Of a DNA stretch of 64,000 nt, positions 52,960 to 58,644 are shown one piece after another (position 1 is the stretch's first letter; the number at the start of each line of letters is the position of its first letter). Position numbers and translations under genes: made by a program. Source of the DNA: Sulfurovum sp. TSL6 (GTDB taxonomy: Bacteria; Campylobacterota; Campylobacteria; Campylobacterales; Sulfurovaceae); the NCBI RefSeq assembly GCF_019972115.1, contig NZ_BPFJ01000001.1, positions 682,001 to 746,000 of the forward strand, written 5' to 3'. The notes beneath the pieces were generated by a model, which was given only the letters and a program-made list of their open reading frames with translations, was not told the DNA's origin and made no database searches.

Positions 52960-54246
52960 TTAAAACAGCATATTGAAACTAATGAGAAAGTCTCGATAGT
53001 CTTCAACAATTGATTTTGATGGTTTGGCCCAGCTATGTTCTATCGATAGCTTCATAGGAAGGTAGTACTTAAATGAATAGTCCATTCCCACCGTGATGGC
53101 ATTATCTAAGTCTTTTACATTAATATGACTTTTCTTCGTTGGATAACCATAAAGGTCATTCATTGTAAGATAAGCGAGTTTCACACCAAAACCTGGCATA
53201 AGATTCACTTCACCCCCTACTGAGAATGCCTCATTATCTATATTATCAAGGTCTTTGGATGTCCCAGCACCGATACCTGTATAGGTCACTTCATTTTTAA
53301 AGACTTTACTCATGGTCAAAGTAGCACTTTTATCTCCGATGTACCCTTCAACCATAAAATCCATTCCATACGTTTTACGCTTGATACTGAGAGAACTTCC
53401 ATCAGATACTGTATCTCCACCGCTAATGGCAAATCCACCCAAAATAAGGTTATAACTGCCTACAGGATACTCATATGCCAATCTGGCAAAAGGAAGCAGG
53501 TTGCTTGTAAGTTCCATTTGAACATTGTCTTGCCCCTGAGCATACATACCCACCGTTGCAAAGATATGATCACCATCTGCCAATGCACCATCTTTGTCAT
53601 AGTAAGCTTGAAGTCCTGTTGAAGAGCCTGTACCTATCTCTGTTGCTTGAAGTGCATTTGAGAGTCTTCTTATATCAAACGTTCTAAACGGTTTATAGAG
53701 ACCTGAGTTATAAATCTCCATACCTGAGAATGGACCAAAATCAGCTGTAGAATAAGCTGCCAATCCCATATATCCATCTTCTATCTCTTGGGCATAAACC
53801 ATTTTCCCTGAAATGGAATTATCATTTTGAGATTTGTAAGAAAGATTGACAAGGGTTCCGAAATTCTCTGTTACTCTTCCTCCAACATACAACGCGGCTG
53901 TACGAGGTACAGATAAGATACCGTCATTGGTTACAGTAGTATCTTTAACTTTTCCTGACTCACTCGGCTTATTATCTGTTTTTTCATAGATAGACTTAAA
54001 CATCACTCCTGCATTAATATCTGAACCATTGCTGTTGGGATCTGTAAATTTTTGGCTGATGGTCATACCTGAAGCCAAAAATTTTCTACCAAATTTGTTG
54101 AGCCTTTCTATATGTTGTATGTGACATGCTGTACAGTCCATACCTGTCTGTGTAGCAAATAGAGTCACCGCCTTCACTTCACTTGTCAAACTGATGAATC
54201 CAAGTAGCCCCACTGCTACCATACTTTGTCTGTTTATTTTTATCAT
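52960..54246 (-). CDS. monohaem, probably beta-barrel, outer-membrane protein
   Basis: 428 residues. Signal peptide to about 26 (LTSEVKA), one haem-c site CTACH (Cys38, Cys41, His42), then a long region with the alternating polar/aromatic pattern of outer-membrane beta strands, ending with a typical C-terminal aromatic (FNMLF). Such a short cytochrome head fused to a porin-like barrel could pass electrons or act as a cell-surface haem/electron conduit; this is inference. Start at 54246 because GGGGAGGG is just upstream. The next gene leftward encodes the secreted sorting-tail protein. Confidence 0.8.
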   Translation of the reverse strand: MIKINRQSMVAVGLLGFISLTSEVKAVTLFATQTGMDCTACHIQHIERLNKFGRKFLASGMTISQKFTDPNSNGSDINAGVMFKSIYEKTDNKPSESGKVKDTTVTNDGILSVPRTAALYVGGRVTENFGTLVNLSYKSQNDNSISGKMVYAQEIEDGYMGLAAYSTADFGPFSGMEIYNSGLYKPFRTFDIRRLSNALQATEIGTGSSTGLQAYYDKDGALADGDHIFATVGMYAQGQDNVQMELTSNLLPFARLAYEYPVGSYNLILGGFAISGGDTVSDGSSLSIKRKTYGMDFMVEGYIGDKSATLTMSKVFKNEVTYTGIGAGTSKDLDNIDNEAFSVGGEVNLMPGFGVKLAYLTMNDLYGYPTKKSHINVKDLDNAITVGMDYSFKYYLPMKLSIEHSWAKPSKSIVEDYRDFLISFNMLF

Positions 54247-54393
54247 TCTATACCCTCCCCTTTCTTTAAAAAAATAGCTTTGCACTATTTAATTTATTCT
54301 AGCACAACTGACTATAAATATACAAGATATATAACCTAAGTTCAAATGATATAAGTATATAATAAAGTTAAATTAGTTGATAAAAGGAATAGA

Positions 54394-54699
54394 ATGACAT
54401 TCATAAAAATAGGATTTTCACTTGTTGCAGTAAGTTTTCTTTCTGCATCACCAGCAAACACTATCTATGCGCAAAAATGTGCAAGCTGCCACGGTATGAA
54501 TGCGGATATGAAGGCTATGGGAACTTCTAAAGCGATCAAAGATATGACTGTCGAAGAGATAGAGAAATCTGTCGTTAACTATGCGTCAGGAGAAAGAAAG
54601 GCTCTGTCCTTTGTTAAAAGTGTAAAAGAAACTTTTGTGAAAAACTATACTAAAGAAAAGCTCCATGAAGTTGCTGTCTATATTCACGATCTAAAATAA
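54394..54699 (+). CDS. periplasmic class I cytochrome c
   Basis: 101 residues, signal peptide (to about 18-20), haem site CASCHG (Cys29, Cys32, His33) and a small single-domain fold resembling cytochrome c553; a distal Met may be Met45. It carries electrons in the periplasm. TATAAT at 54358-54363 and AAAGGAA before the ATG give it an independent promoter. Divergent from the monohaem barrel protein. Confidence 0.92.
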   Translation: MTFIKIGFSLVAVSFLSASPANTIYAQKCASCHGMNADMKAMGTSKAIKDMTVEEIEKSVVNYASGERKALSFVKSVKETFVKNYTKEKLHEVAVYIHDLK

Positions 54700-55053: not shown

Positions 55054-55107
55054 GGTCAATCCTTTGTATGTAAATATAATGTGTTACATTCAAAGTATAG
55101 GAAAAGA

Positions 55108-55125
55108 GTGTGAAGCTTCTATGAA
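55108..55125 (-). promoter_or_regulatory. predicted response-regulator site upstream of the 88-residue protein
   Basis: On the minus strand, TTCATAG-AAGC-TTCACAC (11-bp period). It ends 8 bp before a TATACT -10 box (55094-55099). Same layout as the sites at 55581 and 58627. Confidence 0.6.
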
Positions 55126-55136
55126 GAAAAAGAAGT

Positions 55137-55538
55137 CTATCTTCGACCTCCTCCGCCTCCGCTGCCTGAGCCACCACCCATGGATCCGCCGCCCATTGAT
55201 CCACCCGTGCCTGCATTTCCATATCCACCCATGAAGTTACCCTGTGCTGAACCATCGTTAAATTTAAATTTAAACCTTGACTTATTGTCATAGTCAAAAC
55301 TTTCTGATTTCTTTTCAGCCCTAGCCTCATTACCTGATCCTATACCATTTGATTTATATTCATCTTTAAATACAAAGCGTTTCTTCTTTGATACTTTTTT
55401 TTTCGTAGGTGCAGGCTTAACCAGTGCCTGTTTCTGACCTGCTTTTTGAAGGATATTCTCTAAGCCGCTCTCTTCTGCTTGAAGTGAAAGAGTGCCAAAT
55501 ATACAAAGAGTGGGAAGTATATATTTATATTTCATCAT
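55137..55538 (-). CDS. secreted protein with Gly-rich C-terminus
   Basis: 133 residues. Signal peptide (MMKYKYILPTLCIFGTLSLQA), a Lys/charged middle with FKDEYKSNGIGSGNEAR, and a tail of Gly/Ser repeats ending in GGGGGRR. The Gly-rich tail and final Arg-rich end recall the 88-residue protein downstream, as if the two were related in design. Start at the first of two adjacent ATGs, since AAAGG is seven bases away. Divergent from the response-regulator gene; the shared promoter region holds a direct-repeat site. Confidence 0.75.
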   Translation of the reverse strand: MMKYKYILPTLCIFGTLSLQAEESGLENILQKAGQKQALVKPAPTKKKVSKKKRFVFKDEYKSNGIGSGNEARAEKKSESFDYDNKSRFKFKFNDGSAQGNFMGGYGNAGTGGSMGGGSMGGGSGSGGGGGRR

Positions 55539-55580
55539 TCGAGCACCTTTCTAAATTTATATTTTTATTATAGTAGAAAA

Positions 55581-55598
55581 GTATGAAAGAAGTATGAA
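55581..55598 (-). promoter_or_regulatory. predicted response-regulator site in the divergent region of the two-component genes
   Basis: On the minus strand, TTCATAC-TTCT-TTCATAC, a perfect direct repeat with 11-bp period, ending 8 bp before TATAAT (55567-55572) of the Gly-rich protein gene. It also lies just upstream of the -35 position of the response-regulator gene (its TATAAT is at 55620-55625), so it may serve autoregulation. Confidence 0.65.
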
Positions 55599-55648
55599 GT
55601 ACTCTTTTACTGAGTATGTTATAATCATAGTAAATATCAGGAGTGTCG

Positions 55649-56323
55649 ATGAAAATTTTATTATTGGAAGATGACATAGGTTTGGCAGATATTATGTCCG
55701 AGTACCTTGAGGACAATGATTTTGAACTGGATCTTGTGTATGATGGAGAAGAAGCACTGGCTAAAGCCTATGAAACACAGTATGACCTGTATATCTTTGA
55801 TGTCAATGTTCCAGCTATTAAAGGTTTTGATCTCTTGAAAACATTACGTGACAATGGTGATGCAACCCCTACGATATTCGTCACTTCTCTCAATGACATC
55901 GATGATGTTTCAAAAGGGTTTGAAAGCGGTGCTGATGATTACCTCAAAAAACCTTTTGAACTTGCCGAACTTCTTTTGCGTATTAAAAATATCCAGAAGC
56001 GTTCTTTTACACAACAACGCTCTACAGTGATCCAGATAGATAAAGATATCACTTTTGATATAGATACAGAATTACTGTATACAGGAGGAGAGAGTGTTTC
56101 TTTACCACAAAAAGAACTTAAATTACTCAAGTACTTTTTGAAGCATCCCAATGAGGTCGTCACCTTTGAAAGTCTCTATGATGTGGTTTGGGATTACGAT
56201 GAAACACCTTCATCAGAATCTTTAAGAGCACATATAAAAAACCTTAGAAAACACCTTACAAAAGATATGATACAAAACCTCAGAGGTCTAGGTTACAGGT
56301 TTGAAATGGAAACTTCAAACTGA
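55649..56323 (+). CDS. OmpR-family response regulator
   Basis: 224 residues from ATG at 55649 (AGGAG six bases upstream). Receiver domain with acidic Asp8-Asp9, phosphoacceptor Asp51 (FDVNVP) and the conserved Lys in KKPFE near 101; then a winged-helix Trans_reg_C domain (about 130-222) with the recognition helix region SSESLRAHIKNLRKHL. It is translationally coupled to the sensor kinase (TGATGA overlap). Predicted targets are the three promoters with TTCAYAC-N4-TTCAYAC. Confidence 0.95.
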   Translation: MKILLLEDDIGLADIMSEYLEDNDFELDLVYDGEEALAKAYETQYDLYIFDVNVPAIKGFDLLKTLRDNGDATPTIFVTSLNDIDDVSKGFESGADDYLKKPFELAELLLRIKNIQKRSFTQQRSTVIQIDKDITFDIDTELLYTGGESVSLPQKELKLLKYFLKHPNEVVTFESLYDVVWDYDETPSSESLRAHIKNLRKHLTKDMIQNLRGLGYRFEMETSN

Positions 56324-57492
56324 TGAAAGCAAGTACTAAAAGTGTTATTATCTTTATGGTTGTATACCTTGGATCACTCAGTATATTGGCCACCTGGATC
56401 GGTTATCTTTACTATGAAGACCAGAAAAAATCTTTGATCGATAATATGCATATGGAAATGCGATATAAAGCAAGAAGTATCAATGCACAGTTGGAATACT
56501 ACCATATGAATCAAAGTGAGCAGTTCACTTTTTATGAAGAGGGGTATGATATTGCTCTCTATGACAATCAAAGAGCATTGATCGCTTCAACATTTATGGA
56601 TAATACTATAGACTTCTCAAAACTCTTTTATGACAATAGTGGCAAATACTATCTTGTCGAATCACTTTTTAAAGAGTATCTGGGGGTCAAATATATTGTC
56701 ATTGCAAAAGCGCTTGATACCAGTAAACTTGATGATATATTTGCACAGATCATCAGGGTAGCTTTGTATGGATTTGTCTTTCTTCTGTTGGTTGCATTTC
56801 TTTTGGCCAAGATCATGCTTTCACCTGTAAAAAAATCTATTTCTGCATTAACGAAATTTATGAAAGATGCGACGCATGAGATGAACACACCCATCAGTAC
56901 GATACTGATGAGCTATGAGCACATGGATAAAGACAATCTAAGCACTAAACAGCTTCGCTCACTTGATCGTATAGATATAGCCACCAAAACCCTCTCCAGT
57001 CTTTACAGAGACCTCTCTTTTGCTTCTTTTCACGACTATATAGAGTATGAGGACACACCCATCGATGTTAAAGAGGTTATCCTTGAAAGAATAAAGTATA
57101 TGGATACACTCATACACTTCAAAGGGTTACAGATCAGTACTGCTTTAGAACATAAAATAATCCACATGGATAAGCGAAAACTAATATTGCTTATAGACAA
57201 TCTTCTCTCAAATGCCATAAAATTTTCTAAGAAAAATGGCCAAATAGAAGTGACTTTAACAGAGCAGTATTTTTCAGTGAAAGATCATGGTATCGGCATT
57301 TCAAAAGAAGACCAAAAAACTATCTTTGAGCGTTTTAAATCCTCTCAGAGTTTGCATGGCGGGTTTGGAGTGGGACTGGATATCGTCAATCAGATCTGTA
57401 AAGAGTACCATATGAAGATCGTATTGGATTCTGAACCTTCCAAGGGAAGTGAATTTAAATTAATTTGGTCAGAACAGAAAAGTCAAAAATAA
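56323..57492 (+). CDS. membrane sensor histidine kinase
   Basis: 389 residues. Two membrane helices (about 10-30 and 143-168) flank a periplasmic sensor domain of about 110 residues with no known motif. The dimerisation box DATHEMNTPIST holds the phosphoacceptor His; the ATPase has N box LLSNAIKFSKKNG, G1 DHGIGISKED and G2 GGFGVGLDIV. Partner of the upstream response regulator. Confidence 0.95.
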   Translation: MKASTKSVIIFMVVYLGSLSILATWIGYLYYEDQKKSLIDNMHMEMRYKARSINAQLEYYHMNQSEQFTFYEEGYDIALYDNQRALIASTFMDNTIDFSKLFYDNSGKYYLVESLFKEYLGVKYIVIAKALDTSKLDDIFAQIIRVALYGFVFLLLVAFLLAKIMLSPVKKSISALTKFMKDATHEMNTPISTILMSYEHMDKDNLSTKQLRSLDRIDIATKTLSSLYRDLSFASFHDYIEYEDTPIDVKEVILERIKYMDTLIHFKGLQISTALEHKIIHMDKRKLILLIDNLLSNAIKFSKKNGQIEVTLTEQYFSVKDHGIGISKEDQKTIFERFKSSQSLHGGFGVGLDIVNQICKEYHMKIVLDSEPSKGSEFKLIWSEQKSQK

Positions 57493-57577
57493 TATATAAT
57501 AGCTTTGATATATAAAAAGATGGTCGTAGTTATAGAGTTTTCTCAATAAGCTAAAATGCTCTAGAATACTAGAATAT

Positions 57578-58000
57578 TTACTCTACTTTCCGACCTGCGT
57601 AGTAGTTGATCTTCCATCCATCTTTTTCTTTTGAAAAGTAAAGTTTCTTCGTTTTCCCATCTTCTGTATAATCGATAGTCTGACGCTTTTCACCATTCCA
57701 TGATACAGACGTGATATCTATTTCAGGTGAAACTTTTCTAGAAATGAGGTCAAAAGAGAGCTTGTTTTCAACCTCTGCTAATGCACCTTCATCTTCTTGT
57801 ATCTTTTTTAATTGTGCCTTGAACTCTTGGTCATGTAATGCCACTCTCAAGCCGAATGTCTCCAAGGTCATTATGTAAGATTCTCCGGTCATCAACTCTT
57901 TGACCGTACTAAGATTGCCACTATACAGTGATGTATAGTAGAGAGAAAGTATATCACTGGGCTCTAACAATGAAAAAGTCTTGCTATTGCTTTTGAGCAT
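57578..58000 (-). CDS. small DUF4878-like protein, unknown function
   Basis: 140 residues, no signal peptide. An N-terminal helical part (EPSDILSLYYTSLYSGNLS) and a C-terminal sheet-like half ending SKEKDGWKINYYAGRKVE, which resembles the NTF2-like DUF4878 fold. It follows the DUF2202 gene after six bases, so it is transcribed with it and should share its predicted two-component control. Confidence 0.7.
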   Translation of the reverse strand: MLKSNSKTFSLLEPSDILSLYYTSLYSGNLSTVKELMTGESYIMTLETFGLRVALHDQEFKAQLKKIQEDEGALAEVENKLSFDLISRKVSPEIDITSVSWNGEKRQTIDYTEDGKTKKLYFSKEKDGWKINYYAGRKVE

Positions 58001-58006
58001 AATTTA

Positions 58007-58576
58007 TTATGCTCTCTCAATCGCAGTTTGAAATGCATCAAGATGACTTAAACTACCTTCTTTAAGGCTTTCAAATACAGATACTACATCCTCTGGCATA
58101 CCTTCAGCAGCATGTTCCAAATCTTCTATGTCAGTGTATTCAATCAATTCACCTATTTTAAGTGCATCAAGAAGTGATGTTTCACCTTCACCCACACAGG
58201 TATCATAAAGTTCTTGCAGTACAGGTAAGACAAAGCTTCCTACAGCATCTTCATCTACCTCTGAAGTATCAACACCATATATTTCACATAGTTCTTTTGC
58301 AGAATCCATATGTCTCTGTTCAGATATCTGAATAGATGCAAAAGTATTTTCATTGGTATAAATATTACCTAATGTAATATATACATCTCTGGCTACTTTT
58401 TCTTCCTGGTATATATAAAAGAGCATATCTTTTTGATCTTCCGTCAGTACTACAGTGGTATCTGTCGTTTCTTTTTTTGCATAGGCAGAAGATGAAAATA
58501 ATGCTACACCACTTGCTCCGGCAACAAACATTTTAGTTAAAAAGTTTCTTCTATTTTTAATATTATTCGTATTCAT
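58007..58576 (-). CDS. exported DUF2202 ferritin-like protein
   Basis: 189 residues. The N-terminus has a twin-arginine-like signal (RRNFLTKMFVAGASG, ending SAYA), so a folded, possibly metal-loaded protein is exported. The mature part is a four-helix bundle pattern with EEKVARDVY, SEQRHMDSAKEL and LEHAAEGMP, matching DUF2202 and its conserved Glu/His metal ligands. Upstream, at 58627-58644, lies the direct-repeat site, 8 bp from a TATACT -10. Confidence 0.85.
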   Translation of the reverse strand: MNTNNIKNRRNFLTKMFVAGASGVALFSSSAYAKKETTDTTVVLTEDQKDMLFYIYQEEKVARDVYITLGNIYTNENTFASIQISEQRHMDSAKELCEIYGVDTSEVDEDAVGSFVLPVLQELYDTCVGEGETSLLDALKIGELIEYTDIEDLEHAAEGMPEDVVSVFESLKEGSLSHLDAFQTAIERA

Positions 58577-58626
58577 GATAATCCTTTTAGAATGTTTTAT
58601 AATTACACGAGCAGTATAAGATAGAA

Positions 58627-58644
58627 GTATGAAGAAAGTGTGAA
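58627..58644 (-). promoter_or_regulatory. predicted response-regulator site upstream of the DUF2202 gene
   Basis: On the minus strand, TTCACAC-TTTC-TTCATAC, 11-bp period, 8 bp before TATACT (58613-58618). Third instance of the layout seen at 55108 and 55581. Confidence 0.65.

Follow-up and report, generated by a model that had tools for sequence, protein, structure and literature searches.

The subject of this analysis is a 64,000-nucleotide stretch of the Sulfurovum sp. TSL6 genome (contig NZ_BPFJ01000001.1, positions 682,001 to 746,000; hereafter the window), in which three minus-strand promoters carry a direct repeat, TTCAYAC-N4-TTCAYAC (in one case with a single mismatch), at a fixed distance from the -10 box. 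Genes for an OmpR-type response regulator and a sensor histidine kinase lie between them. Judging from sequence, this adjacent two-component system very probably controls the repeat-marked regulon as a class II activator. The promoter design is of a known kind, while the regulon itself appears to be undescribed.

The sites read TTCATACttctTTCATAC + ttttctac + TATAAT (55581-55598), TTCACACtttcTTCATAC + ttctatct + TATACT (58627-58644) and TTCATAGaagcTTCACAC + tcttttcc + TATACT (55108-55125). The original prediction gave their coordinates, orientation and 8-bp gap to TATAAT/TATACT correctly at all three; the consensus it proposed is exact at two, and the 55108 site contains a single mismatch (TTCATAG), a form found again in most orthologous promoters. 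Within the window the full 32-mer is matched three times at one mismatch or fewer, against 0.05 matches expected from shuffles at three mismatches or fewer. In the 2.25-Mb genome (seven contigs) the exact 18-bp repeat has five copies against 0.125 expected (the expectation uses the base composition of the window, the counts come from pattern searches), and TATAMT follows exactly 8 bp further on in all five, where the chance of a -10 box at one fixed place is about 0.0014. Given these numbers, the arrangement of repeat and -10 box goes beyond chance. Control patterns (read backwards) mostly occur zero to one time per genome at up to two mismatches. A spread of motif and gap over unrelated promoters, named beforehand as a possible refutation, was thus not observed. 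Two of the five exact copies are located in the window and three elsewhere (C1:148796, C1:457031 and C2:83111), the latter upstream of genes for small peptides that we call AHH peptides, so that the regulon is larger than the three promoters originally proposed. By inspection, neither a -35 element nor a TGn extended -10 is seen at the three window target promoters.

Orthologues of the regulator, with at least 69% identity, are present in 15 genomes of the genus (its own included), and none falls between 69% and 50%. In the other genomes the kinase gene is always found next to the orthologue, and Gly-rich and/or DUF2202 genes nearly always, typically with the element in front of them. When promoters are aligned on the element, information content is high in the half-sites (1.63-1.87 bits per column) and in the -10 box (1.65-2.00), and lower in the 4-bp spacer (0.82-0.88) and the upstream flanks (0.36-0.86). 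Because the alignment was anchored on the motif and its 8-bp gap, these values are inflated. Genomes with a regulator orthologue contain 10.0 sites per genome, those without 2.1 (15 vs 63 genomes; Mann-Whitney p 4.6e-9, in a test that ignores the shared ancestry of the genomes). Moreover, a forward repeat 8 bp before a -10-like box is present in the promoter of the regulator gene itself in G100, G098 and G130. Taken together, specificity across the genome, conservation at orthologous promoters, co-occurrence with the regulator and the element upstream of the regulator gene itself in three orthologues support the predicted regulon of the adjacent OmpR-type system.

That the regulator and kinase genes are situated between the sites was confirmed with Pfam domains (Table 1). 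The regulator consists of a receiver and a winged-helix C-terminal domain and its gene adjoins that of a HisKA/HATPase_c kinase, as in the OmpR/PhoB two-component class; the tandem half-sites about 11 bp apart at the putative target promoters agree with this class as well. Both the phospho-acceptor Asp of the regulator and the HEMNTP His motif of the kinase are kept. The periplasmic region of the kinase is predicted to form a long helix and five strands, a model compatible with a PAS/Cache-like sensor domain; Foldseek matches were mostly to the kinase core and uninformative on the ligand. The TGnTATAAT of the regulator promoter is retained in most orthologues and, as the 55581 repeat adjoins this divergent promoter, autoregulation is likely.

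Table 1. Features of the regulon in the window and at related loci elsewhere in the genome or in relatives.
Feature	Position	Strand	Remarks
Direct repeat TTCATAC-N4-TTCATAC	55581..55598	minus	divergent region between Gly-rich and regulator genes; kept in orthologues
-10 box TATAAT	55567..55572	minus	8 bp past 55581-55598 repeat
Direct repeat TTCACAC-N4-TTCATAC	58627..58644	minus	5' of DUF2202 gene
-10 box TATACT	58613..58618	minus	8 bp past 58627-58644 repeat
Direct repeat TTCATAG-N4-TTCACAC	55108..55125	minus	single mismatch to consensus
-10 box TATACT	55094..55099	minus	8 bp past 55108-55125 repeat
OmpR/PhoB-family response regulator (PF00072+PF00486; Response_reg, Trans_reg_C)	55649..56323	plus	ATG 55649 with upstream AGGAG preferred over GTG 55643
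Sensor histidine kinase (PF00512+PF02518; HisKA, HATPase_c)	56323..57492	plus	profile matches
Extended -10 of regulator, TGT-TATAAT (TGTTATAAT)	55617..55625	plus	shared repeat at 21 bp distance, on the opposite strand
Gly/Met-rich protein, 133 aa	55137..55538	minus	Sec-type signal sequence (by eye); behind 55581 repeat; orthologues found
Gly/Arg-rich protein, 88 aa	54787..55053	minus	Sec-type signal sequence (by eye); behind 55108 repeat; orthologues found
DUF2202 ferritin-like protein (PF09968)	58007..58576	minus	twin-arginine signal; behind 58627 repeat
140-aa protein, function not assigned	57578..58000	minus	3' neighbour of DUF2202; start 6 bp past DUF2202 stop codon
AHH peptide loci	L172 (site 3828); L173 (site 4032); L174 (site 4143)	minus; plus; minus	
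AHH peptide relatives	L169-L171, L175, L225, L227, L229-L231, L250, L256		
Candidate RNA, own copy	L263:1501-1647 = C2:691839-691985	minus	
Candidate RNA, own copy	L295:353-506 = C2:692091-692244	minus	
Candidate RNA, own copy	L289:101-243 = C3:346905-347047	minus	without repeat
Candidate RNA relatives	L259-L288		

Phosphotransfer, binding, activation and the physiological role are what we infer, and the proposed mechanism is as follows. The kinase would phosphorylate the regulator, two protomers of which would bind head to tail to the TTCAYAC half-sites, 11 bp apart and on the same face of the DNA. The bound repeat (about -38 to -21) would then stand in for the missing -35 element, and the regulator would work as a class II activator that recruits RNA polymerase to the -10 box located 8 bp further on. 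Under this model the regulon would comprise the 133-aa Gly-rich and 88-aa Gly/Arg-rich proteins, DUF2202 with its operon partner and three AHH peptides encoded elsewhere. Their site of action may be the periplasm or envelope, and their role would most likely be a response to metal and/or redox stress.

Several points weigh against this assignment. Next to the anchored alignment and the shared ancestry mentioned above, the 55108 site deviates from the consensus at one position, and the physiological role, though plausible, is deduced from how targets are annotated in other species. The missing -35 element had been put forward as the signature of a class II activator; its absence was seen by inspection, but -35 boxes are weakly conserved in Campylobacterota promoters (PMC7755780), which makes it a poor argument that is not diagnostic in this phylum and leaves the fixed spacing as the stronger one. 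Furthermore, the own genome has regulator paralogues at 48% and 41% identity, and similar sites also occur in genomes without a close orthologue (G042, G067, G091 and G110); an exact window-type site is present in G042. Given these sites, a paralogous regulator can probably use such elements too, and the assignment to the window regulator is not absolute. Many paralogous systems follow a family-wide rule in which genes for a response regulator (RR) and histidine kinase (HK) precede TTCAY-N6-TTCAY-N10-TATAMT and a gene for a small cytochrome c or DUF2202. The TTCAY core is therefore common to the regulator subfamily, and the terminal AC of each half-site seems, from these comparisons, characteristic of the window branch. 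Because paralogous systems use similar sites, what ties the element to the window regulator is linkage, co-occurrence and its presence in the promoter of the regulator gene.

It might be argued that the repeats are true activator sites read mainly by a paralogous OmpR-type regulator (e.g. C1:408907, 48%) or by several regulators jointly, the linkage in the window being only partly causal. The RR-HK operons that precede TTCAY-type promoters across the family would fit, as would the location of the own paralogue near TTCACAAtattTTCACAA + TATTAT, a site in front of a gene for a small exported protein with cytochrome-like genes as neighbours, and the exact site in G042. We nonetheless consider this rather unlikely: genomes with a close orthologue have five times more sites, the element is present in the orthologue's own promoter (three genomes) and clusters around the orthologue in most others, and paralogue-linked half-sites favour the TTCACRA and TTCACTT types over TTCAYAC. 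Still less probable is that the repeat is a repressor site, where binding of the regulator would keep RNA polymerase off the -35 region until the kinase relieves the block. The repeat does overlap that region, and the extended -10 of the divergent regulator promoter looks usable without an activator, but the target promoters themselves lack, by inspection, both a -35 and a TGn extended -10, their geometry is nearly that of CiaR-activated promoters, and contact with RNA polymerase, unlike repression, demands a spacing that stays at 8 bp in dozens of promoters. That the repeats merely reflect a general promoter style of the lineage, without a specific regulon, is in line with the poorly conserved -35 boxes of the phylum; with just five exact copies in 2.25 Mb, reversed-pattern controls near zero and a common type of target, we regard it as highly improbable.

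The own 48% paralogue system (L162:3998-7330 = C1:408904-412236) is followed by cytochrome-like genes and by the gene of the small exported protein, which lies behind the TTCACAAtattTTCACAA repeat (TTCACAA-type) and TATTAT. Judged by eye, reading frames about 3 kb upstream of it resemble those of multicopper oxidase and CopB. When 11-bp direct repeats before a -10 box were sought generically near the best regulators of other families, the outcome was mostly AT-rich noise. One exception is TTCCACACTTCTTCCACAC before TAAAAT (L146:4856, minus strand), located just 3' of an RR-HK operon in one Campylobacteraceae genome, which may serve a related system as its cognate site.

The genes behind the exact repeats have in common that they encode small proteins with export signals. 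For the 133-aa and 88-aa Gly-rich proteins no Pfam or NCBIfam match was found. The DUF2202 protein scores 107.7 bits against PF09968 (Pfam gathering score 22) and has a relative in PDB (MJ0754, 3q4n); we take its fold to be ferritin-like. Its RRxFL-type twin arginine is kept in 12 of 13 homologues sharing the N-terminus (QR in one), in line with the predicted twin-arginine export. As the 140-aa gene starts 6 bp past the DUF2202 stop codon, the two probably form one operon. Beside the cluster we also observe genes for a 441-aa protein (52960-54285, minus strand; CxxCH motif, predicted exported, no Pfam match) and a small cytochrome c (54394-54699, plus strand). Homologues of both adjoin the cluster in many relatives, and neither has a repeat promoter in the window.

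The repeats at C1:148796, C1:457031 and C2:83111 precede paralogous peptides of 44-48 residues with signal sequences (predicted export), of the MKK...AMAHHPAP... and ...SAHHMAQSDTAG... types. This AHH family, with AHH around the predicted cleavage site, has several copies per genome, all of them behind a regulon-type promoter (the route by which they were found). After cleavage the peptides would start with His-His, which could plausibly bind metal.

A further own site, C2:691986 (TTCACACTTACTTCATGCAATGAAGTTATACT), is followed at once by a conserved sequence of about 150 nt without a conserved reading frame, and the same holds for exact sites in G101, G107, G144, G091, G110 and G042. The idea that C2:691986 is a chance match was dropped when the sequence following it proved to be conserved. 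A covariance model built from ten copies gives matches in 26 of the 78 genus genomes, with three in the own genome. Changes on both sides are seen in 13 of 23 pairs. Pairing holds in 94.9% of cells, while slid versions reach 37-62%, in an alignment that was fitted to the model and so leans towards it. No match was found in Rfam. Outside the training set, repeat and -10 box abut the RNA in 22 of 30 copies (often as TTCACA-N5-TACACA). Many copies have a C/U-rich loop (CCCUCCC) in the 5' hairpin, as do some antisense small RNAs. G042 has the RNA with an exact site, yet no close regulator orthologue. The candidate covarying RNA family appears to be undescribed.

Elements of this kind are also found in other species, in front of further DUF2202 genes and of genes for Gly/Met-rich exported proteins, DUF302 and cytochrome-like proteins, as well as a multicopper oxidase (L233) and an EF-hand/DUF1104 Met-rich protein (L141). 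In L252 a DUF2202 lipoprotein directly follows a paralogous RR-HK pair behind such an element, and DUF2202 seems to be a recurrent target of this regulator subfamily. DUF2202 proteins behind similar repeats (L252, L236, L242, L254, L037, L015 and L039) are mostly lipoproteins, some encoded directly after a paralogous RR-HK operon. Since the wider targets include multicopper oxidase, EF-hand/Met-rich proteins and DUF2202, the function that we tentatively favour is a response to metal (perhaps copper) and redox stress in the periplasm. More speculative, and rather doubtful at present, is the broader view that the window system or a close paralogue controls an undescribed periplasmic metal/redox regulon of DUF2202, Gly/Met-rich proteins, AHH peptides below 50 residues and structured small RNAs with C/U-rich loops, as the Campylobacterota counterpart of the CiaR-csRNA circuit.

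Promoters of similar design are known from several OmpR-family systems. For CreB/BlrA the cre/blr tag is TTCACN6TTCAC (PMC4689548). The likeness to CreBC/BlrAB includes the regulator family, a core repeat with 11-bp spacing and its location after the RR-HK genes and before a target; E. coli creD is preceded by the cre tag TTCACcgtcacTTCAC, and the window repeats match the cre/blr core with TTCAY in place of TTCAC. However, the window half-sites extend to TTCAYAC and no creD is found beside the window system. The window regulator is not CreB itself, with 31% identity to the E. coli protein and 130.9 bits against a curated-model cut-off of 273. In streptococci, the CiaR repeat is TTTAAG-N5-TTTAAG (the -10 box was searched for 10 nt on), and small RNA genes belong to the CiaR regulon (PMC3091779). 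CiaRH resembles the proposed window system as an OmpR-family activator with an 11-bp-spaced direct repeat at a fixed distance to the -10 box, whereas its half-site (TTTAAG) and phylum differ. Small RNA genes driven by the regulator's repeat would be expected of a CiaRH-type regulon, and a candidate RNA family with a repeat promoter is observed here; its driver may be the window regulator or a paralogue.

Within the phylum, TCS2/RR2 of Sulfurospirillum (tetrachloroethene respiration) is an OmpR-family system with a direct repeat overlapping the -35 region (PMC7755780), but this repeat is CTATW-N17-CTATW and its targets concern organohalide respiration. DccRS of C. jejuni has an OmpR-like regulator with few target promoters, namely that of dccR and those in front of genes for putative periplasmic/membrane proteins (PMC9449129; PMC7118207). 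Phylum, regulator type and the periplasmic/membrane nature of the predicted targets are shared with the window system. In C. jejuni, dccS adjoins groEL. Around groEL in ten Campylobacteraceae genomes no related two-component system was found, so that adjacency to groEL is a weak criterion. The DccR consensus, reportedly given by Wosten et al. in 2010 (J Bacteriol), is said to be WTTCAC-N6-TTCACW over the -35 region, which would give it the core and spacing of the window repeats, although the window half-sites are TTCAYAC; the DccRS targets reportedly include a macrolide efflux pump, of which no counterpart is seen in the window regulon. A search for DccR-type sites in 34 genomes of genus g52 found none, and a contig scan with the best regulator of that genus gave one distant Salipaludibacillus match and none in Campylobacter.

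Overall, few regulons are known from this group of Campylobacterota, and the system offers a testable one that is sharply defined and can be searched for by its promoter code. One control element ties together DUF2202, Gly-rich exported proteins and micropeptides, all families without known function, and the AHH peptides, at 44-48 residues, are too short for routine annotation. The same motif search exposed a conserved, covarying RNA family that is absent from Rfam and has promoters of like design. In this bacterium of the sulfur-oxidiser group (Campylobacterota), a single pair of membrane sensor and DNA-binding regulator appears to switch on a few exported proteins and very small peptides, all by way of the same rigid promoter layout.

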